From positions 4,547,001 through 4,611,000 of the forward strand of contig NZ_LT859959.1 in NCBI RefSeq assembly GCF_900176205.1: a stretch of 64,000 nucleotides of DNA. The letters run 5' to 3'. Position 1 is the stretch's first letter; every line of letters begins with the position of its first letter. The position numbers and the translations under genes were made by a program. Under the pieces are notes generated by a model. That model searched no databases and was not told where the DNA came from. It was given only the letters and a program-made list of their open reading frames with translations. Positions 4,235 to 48,530 of the stretch are shown here, in pieces. This DNA is from Bradyrhizobium sp. ORS 285. GTDB taxonomy: Bacteria > Pseudomonadota > Alphaproteobacteria > Rhizobiales > Xanthobacteraceae.

Positions 4235-4747
4235 CTATTTTGGCCGGCGCTTGAGCTTGGCGCGCTTGGGCAGCAGCACCGGCCATTGCACGATGTGATC
4301 CTCGAGCTGGTCGTCGGGAACGTCGTCCTCGGTGCCCTCGACCCGGCCGCGCACGGACACGCCGGCTTCATGCACCGTCTGAGGATCGCCCGAAATCAGC
4401 GGGTGCCACCAATAGAGGTCGCGTCCCTCCGCCGCCAGCCGGTAGCCGCAGCTCGGCGGCAGCCAGGTGATGGTACGGACATTCTCAGGCGTCAGGCGAA
4501 CGCAGTCGGGCACCTGCTCGGAGCGGTTCGGGTAGTCCTTGCAGGCACATAGGCCGGCATCCAGAAGCTTGCAGGAAATGTGGGTGAAGTAGATGTCGCC
4601 GGTATCCTCGTCCTCGAGCTTCTCGAGGCAACAGCGCCCGCAGCCGTCGCACAGGCTTTCCCATTCCGCCTCCGACATCTCCTCCAAGGTCTTGGTTTTC
4701 CAGAACATTCCCTCCTGGCCCGAGGGACGTTTCAGCGGTGCGGTCAT
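4235..4747 (-). CDS. YcgN-family (UPF0260) cysteine-cluster protein
   Basis: 170 residues from the chosen ATG; the frame stays open upstream to 4855, but homologues start close to MTAPLKRP, so the shorter start is preferred. A tight cysteine motif CDGCGRCC (about residues 34-41) followed by further cysteines ([17 protein letters not shown], then DCVR and a CGYR) marks the UPF0260/YkgJ-like CxxCxxCC family, thought to bind a metal or iron-sulfur cluster. The biochemical function is not established. The tail is lysine/arginine rich. Confidence 0.88.
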
Positions 4748-5068
4748 CGGGCGATTCCAAGGGGGCGCGGCGTGGCCGCCATCTAGGTGCCCGGCCCCTT
4801 CACGCGCAAGGGGCGCACGCGGCGGTTCATCAAGCACGTTAGCTTTGTGCATCAAATTGTGACGGGAACCCGTTGGTTTGTGCCACCTGCTCAGCTAGAT
4901 ATCGGCTACACAAGAGGCTTGAGTCACTCCGGCGGCGTGTGCAGGGCCATCCAGCCCGGTGCCTTGGGTTTGCCGCAACATACGCGCAAGACCCTTCGAT
5001 GGCCCCCAGCCCCCATGCTGAGTGCTTTCGAAGCCCGCTGACACGCTTTCGAAACGACCAGGGTTCCC
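4748..5068. other. divergent intergenic region, no gene seen
   Basis: 321 bases between the minus-strand YcgN-type gene and the plus-strand penicillin-binding protein gene. It must contain both promoters, but no convincing -35/-10 pair, hairpin or repeat was identified. Reading frames across it lack start and codon-bias support. Confidence 0.4.
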
Positions 5069-7351
5069 GTGCGGCAGATCATTCCAGACGATTGGAAGAA
5101 GCGGATCAACAATTTCCGCCTGGATCTCGACGCCCGATTCGATTCGGCGCTGTTCTCCTCGCTGCGCGGCACCCGCGAACTCTACGAGCGCTACTCGGCG
5201 TTCATGGACCGCTTCTATGTCGGCGGCTGGAAGCGCTGGGTGTTCGTCGAGCCGCTGTCGGAGGCGGCCACCATCGGCCTCGGCGGCCTGGTGCTGATGC
5301 TGGCGCTGGCCATCCCGGCGTTCCGGGAGACCGCCGACGAGGACTGGCTGAAGAAGTCCGATCTCGCGGTCACCTTCCTCGACCGTTACGGCAACCCGAT
5401 CGGCAGCCGCGGCATCAAGCACAACGACTCGATCCCGCTGGAAGACTTCCCGGACAATCTGATCAAGGCGACGCTCGCGACCGAGGACCGCCGCTTCTAC
5501 GACCATTTCGGCATCGACTTCCCCGGCCTCGCGCGTGCGCTCGTGACCAACGCCCAGGCCGGCGGCGTCCGCCAGGGCGGCTCCTCGATCAGCCAGCAGC
5601 TCGCCAAGAACCTGTTCCTGTCGAACGAGCGCACCATCGAGCGCAAGGTCAACGAGGCGTTCCTGGCGATCTGGCTCGAAACCCGCCTGACCAAGAACGA
5701 GATCCTCAAGCTGTATCTCGACCGCGCCTATATGGGCGGCGGCACCTTCGGCGTCGACGGCGCGGCGCATTTCTACTTCAACAAGTCGGTGCGCGACATC
5801 AACCTGTCGGAAGCCGCGATGCTGGCCGGCCTGTTCAAGGCGCCGACCAAGTTCGCCCCGCACATCAACCTGCCCGCCGCCCGCGCCCGCGCCAACGTCG
5901 TGCTCGACAATCTGGTCGATGCCGGCTTCATGACCGAGGGCCAGGTGTTCGGCGCCCGCCGCAACCCGGCCTTCGCCGTCGACCGTCGCGACGAAAGCTC
6001 GCCGAACTACTTCCTCGACTATGCCTTCGACGAGATGCGCAAGCTGGTCGACACGTTCCCGAAGTCCTATACCGAGCGCGTGTTCGTGGTGCGGACCTCG
6101 ATCGACATGACCGTGCAGCACGCCGCCGACGAGGCGATCGAGAACCAGCTGCGCCAGTTCGGCCGCGACTATCACGCGACCCAGGCCGCGACCGTGGTGT
6201 CCGATCTCGACGGCGGTATTCGCGCCATGGTCGGCGGCCGCGACTACGGCGCGAGCCAGTTCAACCGCGCCACCGACGCCTACCGCCAGCCGGGCTCGTC
6301 GTTCAAGCCTTATGTCTACACCACCGCCCTGCTCAACGGCTTCAAGCCGACCTCGATTGTGGTCGACGGCCCGGTCTGCATCGGCAATTGGTGCCCGCAG
6401 AACTATGGCCACTCCTATTCCGGCTCGGTGACGCTGACCCAGGCCATCACGCGCTCGATCAACGTCGTGCCGGTGAAGCTGTCGATCGCGCTCGGCGGCA
6501 AGGACGGCCCCAAGGCCGGCCGCGCCAAGATCGTAGAGGTCGCCCGCCGCTTCGGCCTCAAGGCGCCGCTGCCGGACACGCCGTCGATGCCGATCGGCTC
6601 GGACGAGGTGACGGTGCTGGAGCATGCCGTGGCCTACGCGACCTTCCCGAACAAGGGCAGGTCGGTGACGCCGCATTCCGTGCTGGAGGTGCGCACCGGC
6701 GCCGGCGATTTGGTGTGGCGCTGGGACCGCGACGGGCCGAAGCCGAAGCAGGCGATCCCCGCCTCCGTTGCCGCCGACATGGCGGGCATGATGAGCCACG
6801 TCGTCAGCGAGGGCACCGCGCGCCGCGCCGCGCTCGACGGCATTCCGACTGCCGGCAAGACCGGCACCACCAATGCCTATCGTGACGCCTGGTTCGTCGG
6901 TTACACCGGCAACTTCACCTGCGCGGTCTGGTACGGCAATGACGATTATTCGCCGACCAACCGCATGACCGGCGGCTCGCTGCCGGCGCAGACCTGGCAC
7001 GACATCATGGTCGCCGCGCATCAGGGCGTCGAGGTCAAGGAGCTGCCCGGCGTCGGCATGGGCGAGAAGCTGCCGCCGCAGCCGCCGTCCGCGGCGATGG
7101 CGCAGGCTGGCCAGCCGAAGACGCTGGAGATCAAGCCCGGTCCGCCGCCGATCCTGACGCGCCGCGGCGCCGAGGTGCTGGTGCAGGTGGAGAAGATGCT
7201 GGACGATGCCGCGCGCGTCGCCGAGAAGGCTGCGCCTGCCGATCCGAAGAAGCCCGGCAAGCCGGTGTCGTCGAGTGCGCTGGCGTTTCCCGAGAATTAT
7301 GCCACGGCCACCGCCGACAGCGTGACCACCCCTGCCTTGCGCAAGAACTGA
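5069..7351 (+). CDS. class A penicillin-binding protein (PBP1A-type glycosyltransferase/transpeptidase)
   Basis: 760 residues, bifunctional cell-wall synthase. After a hydrophobic segment (about residues 68-86) comes a GT51 domain with the catalytic glutamate E139 in ATEDRRFYDHFGID and the QGGSSISQQLAKN motif, which polymerises lipid II. The transpeptidase domain follows: nucleophile S410 in SSFK, SIN as the SxN motif, and K597-TG. The C-terminus is a proline/lysine-rich periplasmic tail. Chosen start is GTG at 5069 with aggg upstream; a longer frame open from 4873 lacks any support. The DUF1214 gene begins 15 bases downstream, so the two are probably co-transcribed. Confidence 0.95.
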   Translation: MRQIIPDDWKKRINNFRLDLDARFDSALFSSLRGTRELYERYSAFMDRFYVGGWKRWVFVEPLSEAATIGLGGLVLMLALAIPAFRETADEDWLKKSDLAVTFLDRYGNPIGSRGIKHNDSIPLEDFPDNLIKATLATEDRRFYDHFGIDFPGLARALVTNAQAGGVRQGGSSISQQLAKNLFLSNERTIERKVNEAFLAIWLETRLTKNEILKLYLDRAYMGGGTFGVDGAAHFYFNKSVRDINLSEAAMLAGLFKAPTKFAPHINLPAARARANVVLDNLVDAGFMTEGQVFGARRNPAFAVDRRDESSPNYFLDYAFDEMRKLVDTFPKSYTERVFVVRTSIDMTVQHAADEAIENQLRQFGRDYHATQAATVVSDLDGGIRAMVGGRDYGASQFNRATDAYRQPGSSFKPYVYTTALLNGFKPTSIVVDGPVCIGNWCPQNYGHSYSGSVTLTQAITRSINVVPVKLSIALGGKDGPKAGRAKIVEVARRFGLKAPLPDTPSMPIGSDEVTVLEHAVAYATFPNKGRSVTPHSVLEVRTGAGDLVWRWDRDGPKPKQAIPASVAADMAGMMSHVVSEGTARRAALDGIPTAGKTGTTNAYRDAWFVGYTGNFTCAVWYGNDDYSPTNRMTGGSLPAQTWHDIMVAAHQGVEVKELPGVGMGEKLPPQPPSAAMAQAGQPKTLEIKPGPPPILTRRGAEVLVQVEKMLDDAARVAEKAAPADPKKPGKPVSSSALAFPENYATATADSVTTPALRKN

Positions 7352-43809: not shown

Positions 43810-44592
43810 TTAATAGGCCACGGCCAGTGCCGGATAGCGGCGCTCGATGGCATCGAGATCGACCACCGGCTCATCATACTCGGCGTCAGACTCGTCCATG
43901 CCGATGCTCAAAGCCTGCTCCAGCGCGGACATGTCGATCCGCGCCGGCGCCATGGTCAGATCGGGTGCAACGTCGGCTTCCACGTCGTCGGGTTCGATGA
44001 CGAAGTCGGGCTCCGGATCATCCGCTGAAAGTTCGATCTCGGGCTCGACGACGATCTCGGACTCCGCAAGCACGGTTTCGAGCGAGCGCGGCAGCGCAAT
44101 CGGGCGATGCTCGACGATCGGCGTCGCGACCCGCGGCGTTTCCATCCTTTGCGTTTCGATCCTTGCCGTTTCGATCCTTGGCGTTTCGACGGGCCGCTGC
44201 TGGATGTGATGAAGCGTGATCGGCTCCGGCTCGGCGAGGCGCACGGGCGCCGGCGGCGCGGCCAGTTTCGCGGCCGGCCTTTGGCTCGCCACGATGCTCC
44301 CCGGCTCTGGCTCGGCGCGACGCACCGGAGCCGGCGGCACGGCCAGCGTCGCAGCCGGGCTTTGGCGCGGCACGATGCTCACCGGCTCGGGCTCGGCGCG
44401 GGACAGCCCCTTCCAGGTCTGCACCGCAGCCTTGGCGTGCCGGAGGTCGTCGAGGAATGCCTGCTCGGTGTAATAGCGCCGCCAGCGGCCGCTATCGAAC
44501 AGCTCGGTGAGATGATCGAGACGCCGTTCGGCAAGCGCGCACCAGCGCGCAGCCAGTTCGCGGCTGCAAGCCACGTCCAGTCGATGTGTCAT
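43810..44592 (-). CDS. TIGR03809 family protein, repeat-bearing
   Basis: 260 residues from ATG 44592; the frame open to 44676 lacks family sequence. The N-terminal helical domain (about 1-75: RLDVACSRELAARWCALAERRLDHLTELFDSGRWRRYYTEQAFLDDLRHAK) is the conserved TIGR03809 core, followed by a low-complexity linker with two 30-residue near repeats (PAPVRRAEPEPGSIV / PAPVRLAEPEPITL) and four RIET-type repeats, then an acidic tail. Cytosolic or peripheral. Family is defined by co-occurrence with TIGR03808 beta-helix proteins; here the two genes face each other 3 bases apart, so they are convergent rather than co-operonic. Confidence 0.82.
   Translation of the reverse strand: MTHRLDVACSRELAARWCALAERRLDHLTELFDSGRWRRYYTEQAFLDDLRHAKAAVQTWKGLSRAEPEPVSIVPRQSPAATLAVPPAPVRRAEPEPGSIVASQRPAAKLAAPPAPVRLAEPEPITLHHIQQRPVETPRIETARIETQRMETPRVATPIVEHRPIALPRSLETVLAESEIVVEPEIELSADDPEPDFVIEPDDVEADVAPDLTMAPARIDMSALEQALSIGMDESDAEYDEPVVDLDAIERRYPALAVAY
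44136..44402. repeat. in-gene tandem repeats (15-bp and about 90-bp units)
   Basis: Four 15-bp units of the type gcgtttcgatccttg lie at 44136-44195. A roughly 90-bp unit (ggctccggctcggcg... through the cacgatgctc... stretch) is repeated at about 44219-44402. Both are in frame within the TIGR03809 gene, encoding RIETxR and PAPVRRAEPEP repeats. Prone to copy-number change. Confidence 0.7.
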
Positions 44593-44866
44593 AGGGGAGC
44601 CCGAAAAAAGGGGACGGACGCACTCGGCACGAATCAACGCAACGTGACGTGAATATTTTGTGGAAAAGGTTAACAAAGTCTAGCTAACGCCATCTTCTTT
44701 GGCGGCCAAACCGTAGTCGTGCGGACCTTTTGTCCGTGGTTTCGCGGGCTCGGCCGCGTCGAAACAACGCTGGCGCGTCCGCCGAGATCATCGCGCAACC
44801 CGAAGCTGTAGCGTGGAGCGGCAGTGATCCGCTCGTCGCGGCGCTCACGCATCCCAAATGAACACA
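44593..44866. other. intergenic region with no gene
   Basis: Promoter region of the TIGR03809 gene (minus strand) joined to the 3' end of the subtilase transcript. AT-rich at 44640-44690. No conserved frame or strong promoter match. Confidence 0.35.
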
Positions 44867-44909
44867 TCCCAAAATGAAAGAGCCGTCCGGGGGGACAACC
44901 GGACGGCTC
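44867..44909 (-). terminator. intrinsic terminator of the subtilase operon
   Basis: On the minus strand gagccgtccgg (44909-44899) and ccggacggctc (44890-44880) form a perfect 11-bp stem with an 8-base loop, followed by tttcatttt. It ends the transcript of the sigma/anti-sigma/subtilase unit. Confidence 0.8.
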
Positions 44910-45061: not shown

Positions 45062-46744
45062 CTACTGCTGCGCCGGCCGAAGGGGGTCCGCAGGCGGTGC
45101 GTCGGTTGTCATATTTGTCGACATGGCCGAGGTCGAGGCTGGGCGCAGCTCGCGTGCGGGCTCCGGCTCCCGTCCCTTGTCGCCGGGCGACCCGGCCGCC
45201 GGTGCGGCCGACATTGCGGGCCGATCCTGCGGAGACAGCACGGCCTGCACGGCTGCCAGCGCGTCCGCCTCCCCTGCCCCGAACAGATCATCCTGCCCGG
45301 GCGAGCCGAGATCGCGCGCGGTCCTGGTCAGCACCGTGCGCACCGTCTCCGGCTTCAGTGACGGATTGCGCTCCAGCACCAGCGCCGCAAGGCCGCTGAC
45401 ATAGGCTGCGGAGAATGAGGTGCCGGAGATGATCTGGTACTTGCCGTCCGGCGCCGGCAGGAAGATGTCGGCGCCAGGCGCGGCGAGCGCGATGTAGTTG
45501 CCGCGGTTCGATGCCGGCAGCAATTGATCCCTTGTGTCGGTGGCGCTGACGGCGATGACGTTCGGATTGGCAGCGGGATAGAGCGGCGGCGATTTCGCCC
45601 CGGCATTGCCGGCGGCGGCGACCATGACGACCTCCTTCGCCGCGACGGCTGCGATCGCGCGCTCGATCACGGCATCCTTCGGGCCGGCGAAGCTCATATT
45701 GATGATCTGCGCCCCATGCAGTGCCGCGTAGTCCAGCGCCTTCAGGATCACATAGGAGCTGCTCTCCGCGCCGCCGCCTTTCTTGCCCACGCCGAACGCA
45801 CGGATGGCGATGATCCGCGCATAGGGCGCGCTGCCCATCAGCCGCTTGTGCGAGACGATCACGCCGGCGATGCCGGTGCCGTGCACATGCGGCCCCTCGT
45901 CGCCCCCGAGCGCATCATACGTATCGAACGACGCATCGGCGAATTCGGGATGCTTGAGGTCGACCGCGGAATCGATCACCGCGATGGTCACGTTGGAGCC
46001 CTGCGCCAACTTATGCGCCTCCGGCAGCCGCAGCTTCGCCAGCGCGTATTGCGCCGGATCACCCTCCGCAGGCGTCGCGCTCTGCTGCAGGGCATAGCGA
46101 TAATTCGGCTGCACCGCGCGGACGCTGCGATCGGCCGCAAAGGCGCGGCTGACCGCCTCGACGGAGCGGCGGTCGGTGATCCTGAACAGGCCGATGGTCG
46201 CGCCGATCAAGGGAAAATTCTGCGAGCTGATGCGCTGCAGGCCATAGCGCCGCGCCAGAGCGTCGGCCTGGTCGGTGGACAGGCTGCCGTCGATCTCGGC
46301 GACCAGCTCATTGGCGATGCTGCGCGGATCGCTTGCGGCCGCGGCGGCGGGCTCGCGCCGCTGCGCTGACTTCGCCGACTTGCCCCTGCCCGACGTCCCG
46401 TTCGCCGACGCCGCCTTGTCCGATCCGCCCTCGGCAGTCGCCGACGAGCGCCTCGCGCATTCTCCCGAGGTCGTGCGGTCGGGCGGGCTACAGGATGTCT
46501 GCAGGTTCGGTGAGAAGCGCGCGGTCGGCAGCGCCGGCCGGATGGCAATGCCGGGGTTCGGCGCCGGCGCCCGCATCGCCGCGCCCGGATTGATGCTCGG
46601 CACCCGGCTCGGAATGTTGATCGTGGGCGAGCGCATCATCGCCTGCGCCGATGCGCTGAGATCGCCGCTCGCCATGCCGAGCAGCACGCCTGCGCTGAAC
46701 GCAGCGAGATGTCTTGCGGACCGCAGCAACGCGCGCAGCGACAT
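45062..46744 (-). CDS. secreted subtilisin-like serine protease (S8)
   Basis: 560 residues. Signal peptide (1-34, cleavage near SASA|QA), a Pro/Ala-rich spacer with two cysteines (C85, C96), then a ferredoxin-like propeptide (about 144-214: NELVAEIDGSLSTDQADAL ... AFAADRSVRAVQPNYRY). The catalytic domain follows with D258 (VIDSAVD), H288 (HVHGTGIAG), oxyanion N380 (AAAGNAG) and S443 (SGTSFSAAYVSG). The C-terminal tail (about 510-560) is disordered. Periplasmic or secreted. The gene is 33 bases after the anti-sigma gene and is surely part of its operon, so the sigma factor probably controls it. Confidence 0.93.
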   Translation of the reverse strand: MSLRALLRSARHLAAFSAGVLLGMASGDLSASAQAMMRSPTINIPSRVPSINPGAAMRAPAPNPGIAIRPALPTARFSPNLQTSCSPPDRTTSGECARRSSATAEGGSDKAASANGTSGRGKSAKSAQRREPAAAAASDPRSIANELVAEIDGSLSTDQADALARRYGLQRISSQNFPLIGATIGLFRITDRRSVEAVSRAFAADRSVRAVQPNYRYALQQSATPAEGDPAQYALAKLRLPEAHKLAQGSNVTIAVIDSAVDLKHPEFADASFDTYDALGGDEGPHVHGTGIAGVIVSHKRLMGSAPYARIIAIRAFGVGKKGGGAESSSYVILKALDYAALHGAQIINMSFAGPKDAVIERAIAAVAAKEVVMVAAAGNAGAKSPPLYPAANPNVIAVSATDTRDQLLPASNRGNYIALAAPGADIFLPAPDGKYQIISGTSFSAAYVSGLAALVLERNPSLKPETVRTVLTRTARDLGSPGQDDLFGAGEADALAAVQAVLSPQDRPAMSAAPAAGSPGDKGREPEPARELRPASTSAMSTNMTTDAPPADPLRPAQQ

Positions 46745-46777
46745 GGAGCCTCCGAACGAGCTCTCGGACGGCGCAGC

Positions 46778-47647
46778 CTATTGGGCAGCCACCGCGAGGC
46801 TGACGATCTTCTCCCGCGACAGCCGGCCGATCAGGCCGTCGGCGTCCGCCCGCGACAGCGGCTGGTTGCCGAGCTGCAGCTTGAACAGCCCGCCCTGGGC
46901 GCCTCCGACGATCGAGGCCTGATAGCTGTCGAGCAGCGCGGTGATGTCGGCCATGCGCGCATCCGGCGCGAACCGCACCAGCGCGTAGACCGGCGCGGTC
47001 GATCCAGCGACCTGCGGGCCGAGCCCGCGGATCAGCGGCGCAGCCGGGGCCGGGGCTTCGGCCATGCGCTGGCGGGCCACGCTGCTGTCAGGCGCCCGTT
47101 CGGCCAGAGCCGGCGCGGCCGCGCTGGGCGGCGGCGGTGCTGCTGCCATCGGCCTGCTCACAGGCGCAGGAGCGACACTCTTCTCTTGGACAGCTTTGTC
47201 CTCGGCGACCGAGGCGGTCTGATAAGTCGCGGTCTGCGAGCGCATCAGCACGGCGCCGATGATGCCGGCCTGCGCCACCACCAAGAGCGCACCAAGGCTG
47301 ACGGTCCACACCAAGGTGCGCGGCGACAGGCTCTCGAAGAACGCCATGATGCGCGCGCCGGCGCCGGGCAGCGCCTTGGGCGCCTGCTCCGGCTCGGCCT
47401 CGATCGCGGCGAACAGCTTCTGCATCGCGCGCATCGACGGCGCGCCGAGGCTTTCGTTCAGCGCGATGGTCTCGGCGTATTCCTTCTGGATCTCGGCATA
47501 TTGCAGGGCGAGATCGGCATCCTGCGCCAGCGCCTCCTCGACTCGGCGCATATCGCGCGCATTCAGCGTGCCGGCGGCGTACCACGGCAACAGCAGCTCG
47601 ATGTCACCGGGCTCTTGCTCCAGCATCTTCTTGCTCAAAGCCATCAT
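46778..47647 (-). CDS. membrane anti-sigma factor with a subtilase-propeptide-like periplasmic domain
   Basis: 289 residues. The cytosolic N-terminal domain (about 5-105, EPGDIELLLPWYAAGTLNARDMRRVEEALAQDADLALQY) is anti-sigma-domain-like but without zinc Cys/His ligands. One transmembrane helix is at about 111-134, then a Pro/Ala linker, then a folded periplasmic domain (219-288: VYALVRFAPDARMADITALLDSYQASIVGGAQGGLFKLQL... RLSREKIVSLAV). That last domain has the same beta-alpha-beta spacing and hydrophobic pattern as the propeptide of the subtilase encoded next. ATG overlaps the sigma-factor stop (ATGA), so the two are made together. Confidence 0.85.
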   Translation of the reverse strand: MMALSKKMLEQEPGDIELLLPWYAAGTLNARDMRRVEEALAQDADLALQYAEIQKEYAETIALNESLGAPSMRAMQKLFAAIEAEPEQAPKALPGAGARIMAFFESLSPRTLVWTVSLGALLVVAQAGIIGAVLMRSQTATYQTASVAEDKAVQEKSVAPAPVSRPMAAAPPPPSAAAPALAERAPDSSVARQRMAEAPAPAAPLIRGLGPQVAGSTAPVYALVRFAPDARMADITALLDSYQASIVGGAQGGLFKLQLGNQPLSRADADGLIGRLSREKIVSLAVAAQ

Positions 47648-48207
47648 GGCCAGCCTCTTTCAATGCCGGCCGCCTTCAGGAGTTCGGCCAATTTCTTACG
47701 CGCATAGAACAGGCGCGTCTTGACGGTGTTTTCCGGAATTCCGACAATCTCGGCCACCTCCTCCACGGACTTCTCGTGGTAGTAGACGAGATCGACGATC
47801 TCCCGGTGGTCAGGCGAAAGCGCGGTCAGGCACTTGCGCAGGGCTTCCCCGGTATTCTTCTTCTGCAACGCCACTTCCGGATCGTCGGACGTATCCTCGA
47901 TCGCGTTGGCGGCGTCGTCCTCGAGCTCAACGTCCTTGCGGCGCCGAAGTGCCGAGAGCGCCTTGAATCGCGTGATGGCCAGCAGCCAGGTGGAAACGGC
48001 AGAGCGGCCTTCGAACTTGCCGGCCTGACGCCACACGTCGAGAAAAACCTCGCTGATGAGGTCTTCCGCGGCCTGTTCGTCCCGCACGAGCCGCAGCCCG
48101 AAACGGTACACCCTGACATGGTGCCGTCCATACAGCACCTGCATGGCGAGCCGGTCGCCTTGAGCGATCCGGGCAATCAGGGTTTCGTCTGACGCCGCTG
48201 CTGTCAC
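47644..48207 (-). CDS. ECF sigma-70-family RNA polymerase sigma factor
   Basis: 187 residues from GTG 48207 (VTAAASDETLIARIAQGD); TTG 48213 is an alternative, and upstream codons look non-coding. Region 2: RVYRFGLRLVRDEQAAEDLISEVFLDVWRQ. Region 4: LSPDHREIVDLVYYHEKSVEEVAEIVGIPENTVKTRLFYARKKLAELLKAAG. It directs RNA polymerase to a stress regulon that should include its own operon. The following gene encodes its membrane anti-sigma factor with an ATGA overlap, and a subtilase comes third. A perfect 7-bp inverted repeat (48250-48256/48264-48270) lies 43 bases upstream. Confidence 0.93.
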   Translation of the reverse strand: MTAAASDETLIARIAQGDRLAMQVLYGRHHVRVYRFGLRLVRDEQAAEDLISEVFLDVWRQAGKFEGRSAVSTWLLAITRFKALSALRRRKDVELEDDAANAIEDTSDDPEVALQKKNTGEALRKCLTALSPDHREIVDLVYYHEKSVEEVAEIVGIPENTVKTRLFYARKKLAELLKAAGIERGWP

Positions 48208-48530
48208 GCTCAATGGCCGTCTCGCAAGATTGGTCTGGAGGAATGAGATTGCGGTTCGAATACAACCGCAAAATTCTTGAAAATACCGGAAAGATACGTC
48301 CCCGCGTGTGAGCTGGCGCACAGACACGCACATTTTGCTGCATCGCCCGGGGCAATCGCGCCCGGCGGGGTCCCGCCTACCATGTCACGTCCCTGACCAA
48401 CTGCGCCCGAAAGCCGTAAATTCCCTGCCGCGGCATGCCGCAGCGTCACGTCGTCCCAGTTCCCCTAGATACCAAAGTTAAAGGCTTTCCCACGTAGATT
48501 TTCAGTTGAACCGGAACAAATTGCGCGCGC
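48208..48530. other. divergent promoter region between the ECF operon and a diguanylate cyclase gene
   Basis: 323 bases. At 48250-48270 lies tgcggtt-cgaatac-aaccgca, an inverted repeat that could be an operator or part of an ECF promoter. No clear -35/-10 pair for the sigma factor was identified. On the plus side, ggaac occurs 12 bases before the cyclase start but lacks the rest of an EcfG-type promoter. No gene is supported. Confidence 0.4.

Follow-up and report, generated by a model that had tools for sequence, protein, structure and literature searches.

Organization of the sigma factor, anti-sigma factor and subtilase genes

The window analyzed here is the whole 64,000-nucleotide stretch of Bradyrhizobium sp. 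ORS 285 (contig NZ_LT859959.1, positions 4,547,001 to 4,611,000), and the subject of this study is one minus-strand operon in it. The operon consists of an extracytoplasmic function (ECF) sigma factor gene, a gene for an anti-sigma factor with a single membrane-spanning segment, and a gene for a subtilase of family S8, in this order. The sigma and anti-sigma genes overlap in an ATGA, the anti-sigma gene ends with a TAG stop, and the ATG of the subtilase gene follows after a 33-base gap, as a first-pass annotation of this DNA had described the three linked genes. The features are listed below.

47644..48213, minus strand: ECF sigma gene, 189 amino acids from TTG 48213; GTG 48207 also possible
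46778..47647, minus strand: anti-sigma gene, 289 amino acids (open reading frame; sub-threshold zf-HC2; model NF052375, antisigma, 33 bits, cut-off 100)
47240..47311, minus strand: single transmembrane segment, anti-sigma residues 113-136 (sequence inspection)
46784..46993, minus strand: predicted periplasmic prodomain-like domain, anti-sigma residues 219-288 (AlphaFold2; Foldseek; VIA; PF22148 in homologues)
45062..46744, minus strand: S8 subtilase gene, 560 amino acids (PF00082; signal-peptide-like N-terminal segment by sequence inspection)
46103..46315, minus strand: subtilase propeptide, residues 144-214 (sub-threshold PF22148; model; VIA alignments)
45971..45973, minus strand: catalytic Asp258 (alignments)
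45881..45883, minus strand: catalytic His288 (alignments)
45605..45607, minus strand: oxyanion-hole Asn380, kept in the window and lost in one related branch (alignments)
45416..45418, minus strand: catalytic Ser443 (alignments)

The sigma factor contains regions 2 and 4 (Pfam Sigma70_r2, expectation value (E) 6.9e-17; Sigma70_r4_2, E 6.1e-15) and matches the NCBIfam model NF009168 with 348 bits. Its longest open reading frame extends to 48333, and the NCBIfam match begins at residue 43 of this frame. The start at GTG 48207 that had been proposed earlier is one candidate and TTG 48213 the other, and the 189-residue form is the usual one across the Bradyrhizobium loci. The Pfam and NCBIfam matches and the gene overlap place the pair among ECF sigma factors with a coupled membrane anti-sigma gene. 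The zf-HC2 match on the window anti-sigma factor scores 17.9 bits, below the cut-off of 22.2, and was the sole Pfam domain found on this protein at E ≤ 1; zf-HC2 matched 13 of 23 anti-sigma factors at E ≤ 10, with a best E of 4.9e-12.

The subtilase matched Peptidase_S8 (PF00082) with an E of 7.6e-45 and solved subtilisins with a best E of 9.5e-33. All 13 aligned Bradyrhizobium subtilases have Asp258, His288, Asn380 and Ser443, so the window enzyme looks active, as judged from these alignments.

The periplasmic end of the anti-sigma factor resembles a subtilase prodomain

The AlphaFold2 model of anti-sigma residues 212-289 showed a beta-alpha-beta-beta-alpha-beta arrangement with a predicted local distance difference test score (pLDDT) of 83.5, and its predicted elements span residues 220-226, 232-241, 244-249, 254-259, 266-277 and 282-288. 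Its top PDB matches, by Foldseek and VIA, were protease prodomains. The propeptide of the subtilase was modeled with elements in the same order at residues 142-152, 157-166, 169-177, 182-189, 195-203 and 208-215. The pLDDT of the propeptide blocks was 62-93 up to model residue 80, and 52 for the block holding most of the last strand. The subtilase model as a whole came from a shallow alignment, with a mean pLDDT of 51.5 and a poor mature part, and the propeptide part alone was used. Comparison of this model with the PDB served solely to locate alignment start points, and the VIA alignments to 3whi_B, 3afg_A and PCSK9 start within the propeptide. The strand-for-strand correspondence of the domain and the propeptide, read from the letters in the first-pass annotation, was thus recovered in the predicted order of elements; in the fold comparison that the annotation had named as a refuting check, both domains shared this order and both matched solved prodomains.

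The fervidolysin N-terminal prodomain family PF22148 connects the two proteins in some genomes. On the window subtilase it matched residues 133-214 below threshold (15.5 bits, cut-off 21). Among 23 diverse anti-sigma factors, four were matched at E ≤ 10. Two of ten anti-sigma factors scanned singly exceeded the curated cut-off of 21 bits at the C-terminal domain (L095, 24.7 bits; L133, 22.1 bits), and the other eight gave no match; L216 was also above the cut-off (24.9 bits), and L215 and L209 gave no match. All seven relatives of L095 that were scanned exceeded the cut-off, reaching 31.4 bits (P0319); these seven were picked because they already bore the PF22148 label in a precomputed table, in which 17 of the 120 listed L095 relatives carry the label and the named proteins are from Sphingomonas.

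The domain and the propeptide were also compared as profiles. Twenty-five anti-sigma domains aligned with 19 operon propeptides over 72 collinear columns with a score of 20.4 (E 6.6e-4), compared with a maximum of 7.8 among 100 column shuffles and 4.7 for the reversed profile. The resemblance noted in the first-pass annotation therefore goes beyond chance by this measure, although the hhalign probability of the match was only 11%. Neither set includes the duplicate loci L120, L132, L145 and L146, and the propeptide set also omits L092 and L093, whose subtilases are partial. Plain profile-to-sequence hidden Markov model searches between the domain and the co-encoded propeptides found nothing significant (best E 0.3). 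The best real scores were 2.3 bits for the domain against subtilases and 5.9 bits for propeptides against anti-sigma factors, the best shuffled ones 3.3 and 3.4 bits, and these searches were dropped as homology evidence on their own. Against the sequences of solved structures, the domain profile gave three weak matches with no prodomain among them, and the full-length window anti-sigma factor gave two matches at chance level.

Taken together, sequence families and models place the periplasmic end of the anti-sigma factor, as predicted, in the subtilase-prodomain fold and, in some members demonstrably, in family PF22148 as well. Unlike prodomains, which lie in cis ahead of the protease domain, it forms the end of a separate gene closed by the TAG stop.

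Conservation of the operon in Bradyrhizobium

With the anti-sigma factor as query, 107 relatives were found, and the best 80 were kept. At 78 of these 80 loci the three genes occur in the same order. The two exceptions, L009 (BTAi1) and L082 (Tv2a-2), have the sigma factor and an anti-sigma factor with the C-terminal domain, and no intact neighboring subtilase gene. A search of BTAi1 for S8 at E ≤ 1e-5 found just one protein, longer than the operon subtilase and distinct from it; where the subtilase gene would stand, BTAi1 has an unrelated frame running in the opposite direction (L009 7197-8204, minus strand). In Tv2a-2, two short subtilase remnants lie just past the anti-sigma gene, downstream of 6696, and the sigma reading frame is shortened.

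One locus with a typical Bradyrhizobium operon (L055) comes from a record titled Frankia sp. RB7, which suggests that this assembly is mislabelled or contaminated.

Linkage of the domain to protease genes in other proteobacteria

With the full anti-sigma alignment as query, matches were found in 15 of 299 proteobacterial genomes. Eight loci outside Bradyrhizobium (L091-L098) each have a sigma, an anti-sigma and a subtilase gene, the sigma gene of L094 being interrupted by the contig end. Five of the matches were weak; four of these span the C-terminal domain alone, and the fifth, L097, spans the N-terminal part. A domain-only profile (A3) was built from 12 rows, including the window and seven loci of genomes that were later searched. 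At E ≤ 0.01 it matched 38 times, in 37 of 398 proteobacterial genomes; with at most 14 first-look candidates scored per genome, this is a lower bound on the prevalence of the domain.

An S8 gene lies near 32 of these 38 matches, and near 28 of the 29 matches at E ≤ 1e-6; the flanks examined were 1.5 kb on either side at 22 of the 38 loci and 5 kb at 16. Two of the 38 (L143, E 0.007; L144, E 0.0097) were rejected by eye as false, as they lie in NRPS-like and GlyA-like frames; all counts out of 38 include them. The remaining four (L135, L138, L140 and L141) have a gene for a caspase-like C14 protease within 5 kb, so that a protease gene of either class is found near all 36 matches that lie in anti-sigma genes. 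As a control, 31 zf-HC2 anti-sigma loci were taken from 100 genomes, some sharing one genome, with 5 kb on either side where the contig allowed. A sigma gene was present at 27 of them, whereas S8 genes, C14 genes and domain matches were each found at 0 of 31. Although its training set consisted of operon subtilases, the S8 profile also recognizes two S8 genes that lie elsewhere (E 4e-44 and 1e-36), and the zero in the controls is therefore not the result of a blind profile. Fisher tests of domain loci against controls gave p values of 6e-14 for S8 and 1e-17 for S8 or C14; these tests ignore shared ancestry, the loci are not independent trials, and the C14 test was framed only after exceptions to the S8 linkage had been seen.

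The reverse search led to the same association. The L095 subtilase as query (E ≤ 1e-20, at most four candidates scored per genome) had 22 matches in 21 of the 398 genomes, and all 22 adjoin an anti-sigma gene bearing the domain. The co-occurrence that the first-pass annotation had set as a check thus extends far beyond this genome, both within Bradyrhizobium (78 of 80 loci) and in the wider matches (32 of 38), and the arrangement spans many proteobacterial families.

The gene order varies at some of these loci. In L111 and L114, whose two genomes belong to the same genus, the subtilase gene lies ahead of the sigma gene and not behind the anti-sigma gene. The operon subtilase of L130 (4354-6808) has a lipoprotein-like signal (LLLSGC), and the anti-sigma gene there is on the opposite strand, between the sigma and subtilase genes.

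Exchange of the protease and variation of its active site

Pfam C14 was found in all four of the loci named above. In L140 and L141 the C14 gene follows the anti-sigma gene directly; in L135 and L138 it is about 2-3 kb off. Relatives of the L140 anti-sigma factor were present in 12 of 150 genomes of its family, the L140 genome included; the family was chosen for holding L140, and this survey was not planned beforehand. C14 genes are beside the anti-sigma gene at 10 of these 12 loci and S8 genes at two, and the domain profile matched 11 of the 12 at E ≤ 4e-5, L214 being marginal (0.03). The Pfam C14 E values range from 1.6e-8 (L141) to 4e-41, with L217 outside the scan. All 13 C14 genes inspected retain the His and Cys motifs, and several of the proteins have twin-arginine-like starts by eye. 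Since S8 genes accompany 32 of the 38 domain matches and C14 genes four, and since in one family the partner is mostly C14, the arrangement is a module of sigma factor, prodomain-like anti-sigma factor and protease in which the protease class is swappable.

Nine sigma factors with C14 partners form one group in the tree (branch support 99/98), and operon sigma factors are separate from 25 of 26 control sigma factors in one tree and 11 of 12 in another; a single exchange of partner is therefore sufficient. The C14 sigma tree lacks L138 and L141, where no sigma gene was found, as well as L135 and the control L177 (too short); 13 of the 31 controls entered it. Grouping all S8-associated sigma factors together was not rejected (p 0.365), so the C14 loci may or may not be nested within the S8 loci, and the exchange may have gone in either direction.

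In L138 the domain is encoded twice: directly after the anti-sigma gene (within 4514-5182, minus strand) lies a separate copy (E 1e-12) whose N-terminal segment is hydrophobic.

Among 19 aligned operon subtilases, two are cut before the Ser, and the Asp-His-Ser triad is kept in all 17 that reach it; with the C14 motifs, this makes the majority of the proteases look active. The branch without the oxyanion-hole Asn loop still retains the anti-sigma domain, and in L191 the Asn is likewise replaced (by eye). As far as sequences tell, the loss of this Asn favors binding over cutting in that branch; cutting would be compatible with the protease classes where these are otherwise intact.

A proposed receptor role for the domain and its alternatives

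In the model that we favor as the most likely and most economical, the anti-sigma factor would tether the sigma factor to the inner membrane, and its periplasmic prodomain-like domain would be the contact point for the co-encoded protease. This contact would lead to the loss of the periplasmic part of the anti-sigma factor, which would be cut either by the co-encoded protease, acting as site-1 protease, or, after occupation of the domain, by a different one, and the sigma factor would then be released. Export of the protease, physical contact, cleavage, the direction of the signal and sigma release are steps that we infer. That the domain is a receptor for its co-encoded protease, and that contact removes the anti-sigma factor and frees sigma, is in our judgment about as probable as its opposite. 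On a wider reading, a subtilase prodomain captured by a transmembrane anti-sigma factor would have become the receptor for a co-encoded exported protease, its S8 or C14 partner would be exchangeable and may lose its normal catalytic geometry, and the protease would be the signal and not merely an effector, in an arrangement widespread in proteobacteria; we take this reading, in all its parts, to be somewhat less likely than not. The self-contained protease-gated switch suggested in the first-pass annotation would be plausible.

A number of observations weigh against this model. No Foldseek row reached an E of 0.001, and RRM, S6 and ACT rows came close behind the prodomains, so the fold is a common one. 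PF22148 was absent on the window anti-sigma factor at E ≤ 10. In one branch the gene beside the domain-bearing anti-sigma gene is of the C14 and not the S8 class, and it is not obvious why a receptor of prodomain type would bind a caspase-like protein. Six of the 19 operon subtilases (L095, L131, L136, L137, L139 and L142) have another residue in place of the oxyanion Asn, with the triad kept. BTAi1 keeps the sigma factor, the anti-sigma factor and the domain without a subtilase orthologue.

Several of these points bear on the claim of the first-pass annotation that the domain mimics the propeptide of its own subtilase and would dock on it, inhibit it or be cut by it. The likeness in fold and family was borne out, but the C14 partners, the lost oxyanion Asn, the short tail and BTAi1 speak against a plain mimic of this kind. 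The tail of a propeptide lies in the active site. The window-type domain stops two residues past the last strand (47 of 85 rows), and the L095 type seven residues past it (38 of 85). The window domain is without a tail to fill the active site of the protease; a strict inhibitor mimic was rejected for the window copy on this ground and on that of the C14 partners. The C14 partners, the lost Asn and the short tail argue against a simple inhibitor mimic and leave room for a receptor.

A different use of the same binding would be homeostatic. The sigma factor would mainly control the protease operon, the domain would gauge free mature protease in the periplasm by propeptide-like binding, catalysis on the anti-sigma factor would be unneeded, and the bound protease would shield or mark the anti-sigma factor so that production matches need. 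The prodomain family and fold and the operon structure fit this explanation, weakened catalysis would be expected under it in the branch without the oxyanion Asn, and there is a precedent in RsiV, an enzyme-binding anti-sigma factor for which muramidase activity is unneeded (PMC4183432). We nevertheless find it unlikely, if a serious contender, as an unrelated protease fold is paired with the domain in one branch and the window domain has no tail to occupy an active site. Alternatively, the former prodomain may by now be a general periplasmic sensor or dimerisation module, with the protease only a conserved member of the regulon that never contacts the anti-sigma factor. The exchange for C14, the persistence of the domain in BTAi1 without a subtilase, the separate second copy in L138, the C14 genes lying about 2-3 kb off and outside the operon in L135 and L138, and the common fold would all be accommodated. 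The presence of a protease gene of either class near 36 of 36 anti-sigma matches would be harder to understand, as would the fact that the domain belongs to the prodomain family and to no other, and we regard this explanation as rather improbable.

Prodomains act as folding helpers, and the domain, having the same fold, might be a membrane-tethered intermolecular chaperone for the subtilase and not a sensor of a signal. However, the subtilase has a propeptide of its own, and C14 proteases are not known to us to need folding help of the prodomain type; we give this very little credence. If only the weak similarity within the window itself were considered, chance resemblance and chance neighborhood might be invoked. 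Protease linkage at 36 of 38 loci against 0 of 31 controls, the 22 of 22 in the reverse search and homologues above the Pfam cut-off leave this practically no probability, and chance neighborhood was rejected on the S8 linkage (32 of 38 against 0 of 31) and the reverse search.

Comparison with known systems

In the RseA/DegS system of E. coli sigma-E, DegS is a PDZ protease of the HtrA family, and neither a prodomain-like domain nor an S8 or C14 protease encoded with the pair is known to us there. The likeness is that of a single-pass anti-sigma factor, which in that system is cut first by a periplasmic serine protease (PMC8103513). RsiV of the sigma-V system of Bacillus subtilis is described as a membrane anti-sigma factor and extracytoplasmic lysozyme receptor for which enzyme activity is not required (PMC4183432). 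The extracytoplasmic part of the anti-sigma factor as an enzyme receptor, as proposed here, would be common to both; the partner of RsiV is lysozyme and its site-1 cut is made by signal peptidase, (PMC4183432), whereas here the domain resembles a prodomain and the candidate partner is a protease from its own operon.

The nearest printed remark to this operon concerns ECF54, for which subtilase and caspase-related CHAT domains but no anti-sigma factor are reported in the context of the sigma gene and proteolytic control is proposed, with a model protein from Geodermatophilus (PMC8999054). Here, in contrast, the anti-sigma gene overlaps the sigma gene and the prodomain-like domain is central, and the operon does not qualify as ECF54 by that account (PMC8999054). 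Among the literature matches listed, from which subscription journals are largely absent, neither this operon nor an anti-sigma factor bearing a subtilase-prodomain-like domain was found described; the main ECF classification (Casas-Pastor et al. 2021) may note the S8 neighborhood under one of its groups.

With the prodomains of PF22148 the anti-sigma domain shares the fold and, in some homologues, family membership, but it differs from them in forming the periplasmic terminus of a transmembrane anti-sigma factor. Stand-alone subtilase inhibitors of the I9 type exist, such as yeast PBI2 and POIA1. Subtilases also serve as signaling parts in clostridial spore germination, where some of the Csp pseudoproteases are catalytically impaired; to our knowledge no sigma/anti-sigma pair is involved.

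Many anti-sigma factors end in a periplasmic part for which, as far as we know, no purpose has been established, and a prodomain-like domain with a conserved adjoining protease gene offers a concrete, testable ligand for one such part. If the model is correct, the exchange for C14 would give some exported-looking bacterial caspases a role and would show a protease prodomain turning into a signal receptor. Since many proteobacterial families have the arrangement, an answer in one strain would inform many.

Flanking features

44880..44909, minus strand: terminator-like hairpin 3' of the operon (consensus match only)

A terminator had been placed after the three genes in the first-pass annotation. 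A hairpin-like site with an 11-pair stem and a T-rich tail does lie about 150 bases beyond the subtilase stop, but as evidence it is weak, since four such sites were found in the region where 2.4 were expected. Farther along, 43810-44676 (minus strand) encodes a Pro/Glu-rich protein with repeated PPAPVR...AEPEP segments and without a Pfam match. At the other end of the operon, a CRP/FNR-like palindrome, TGTGCGCCAGCTCACA, is located at 48307-48322 (minus strand), about 100 bases upstream of the sigma start, and its halves TGTG and TCACA are conspicuously conserved in 80 aligned Bradyrhizobium upstream regions, the window included.

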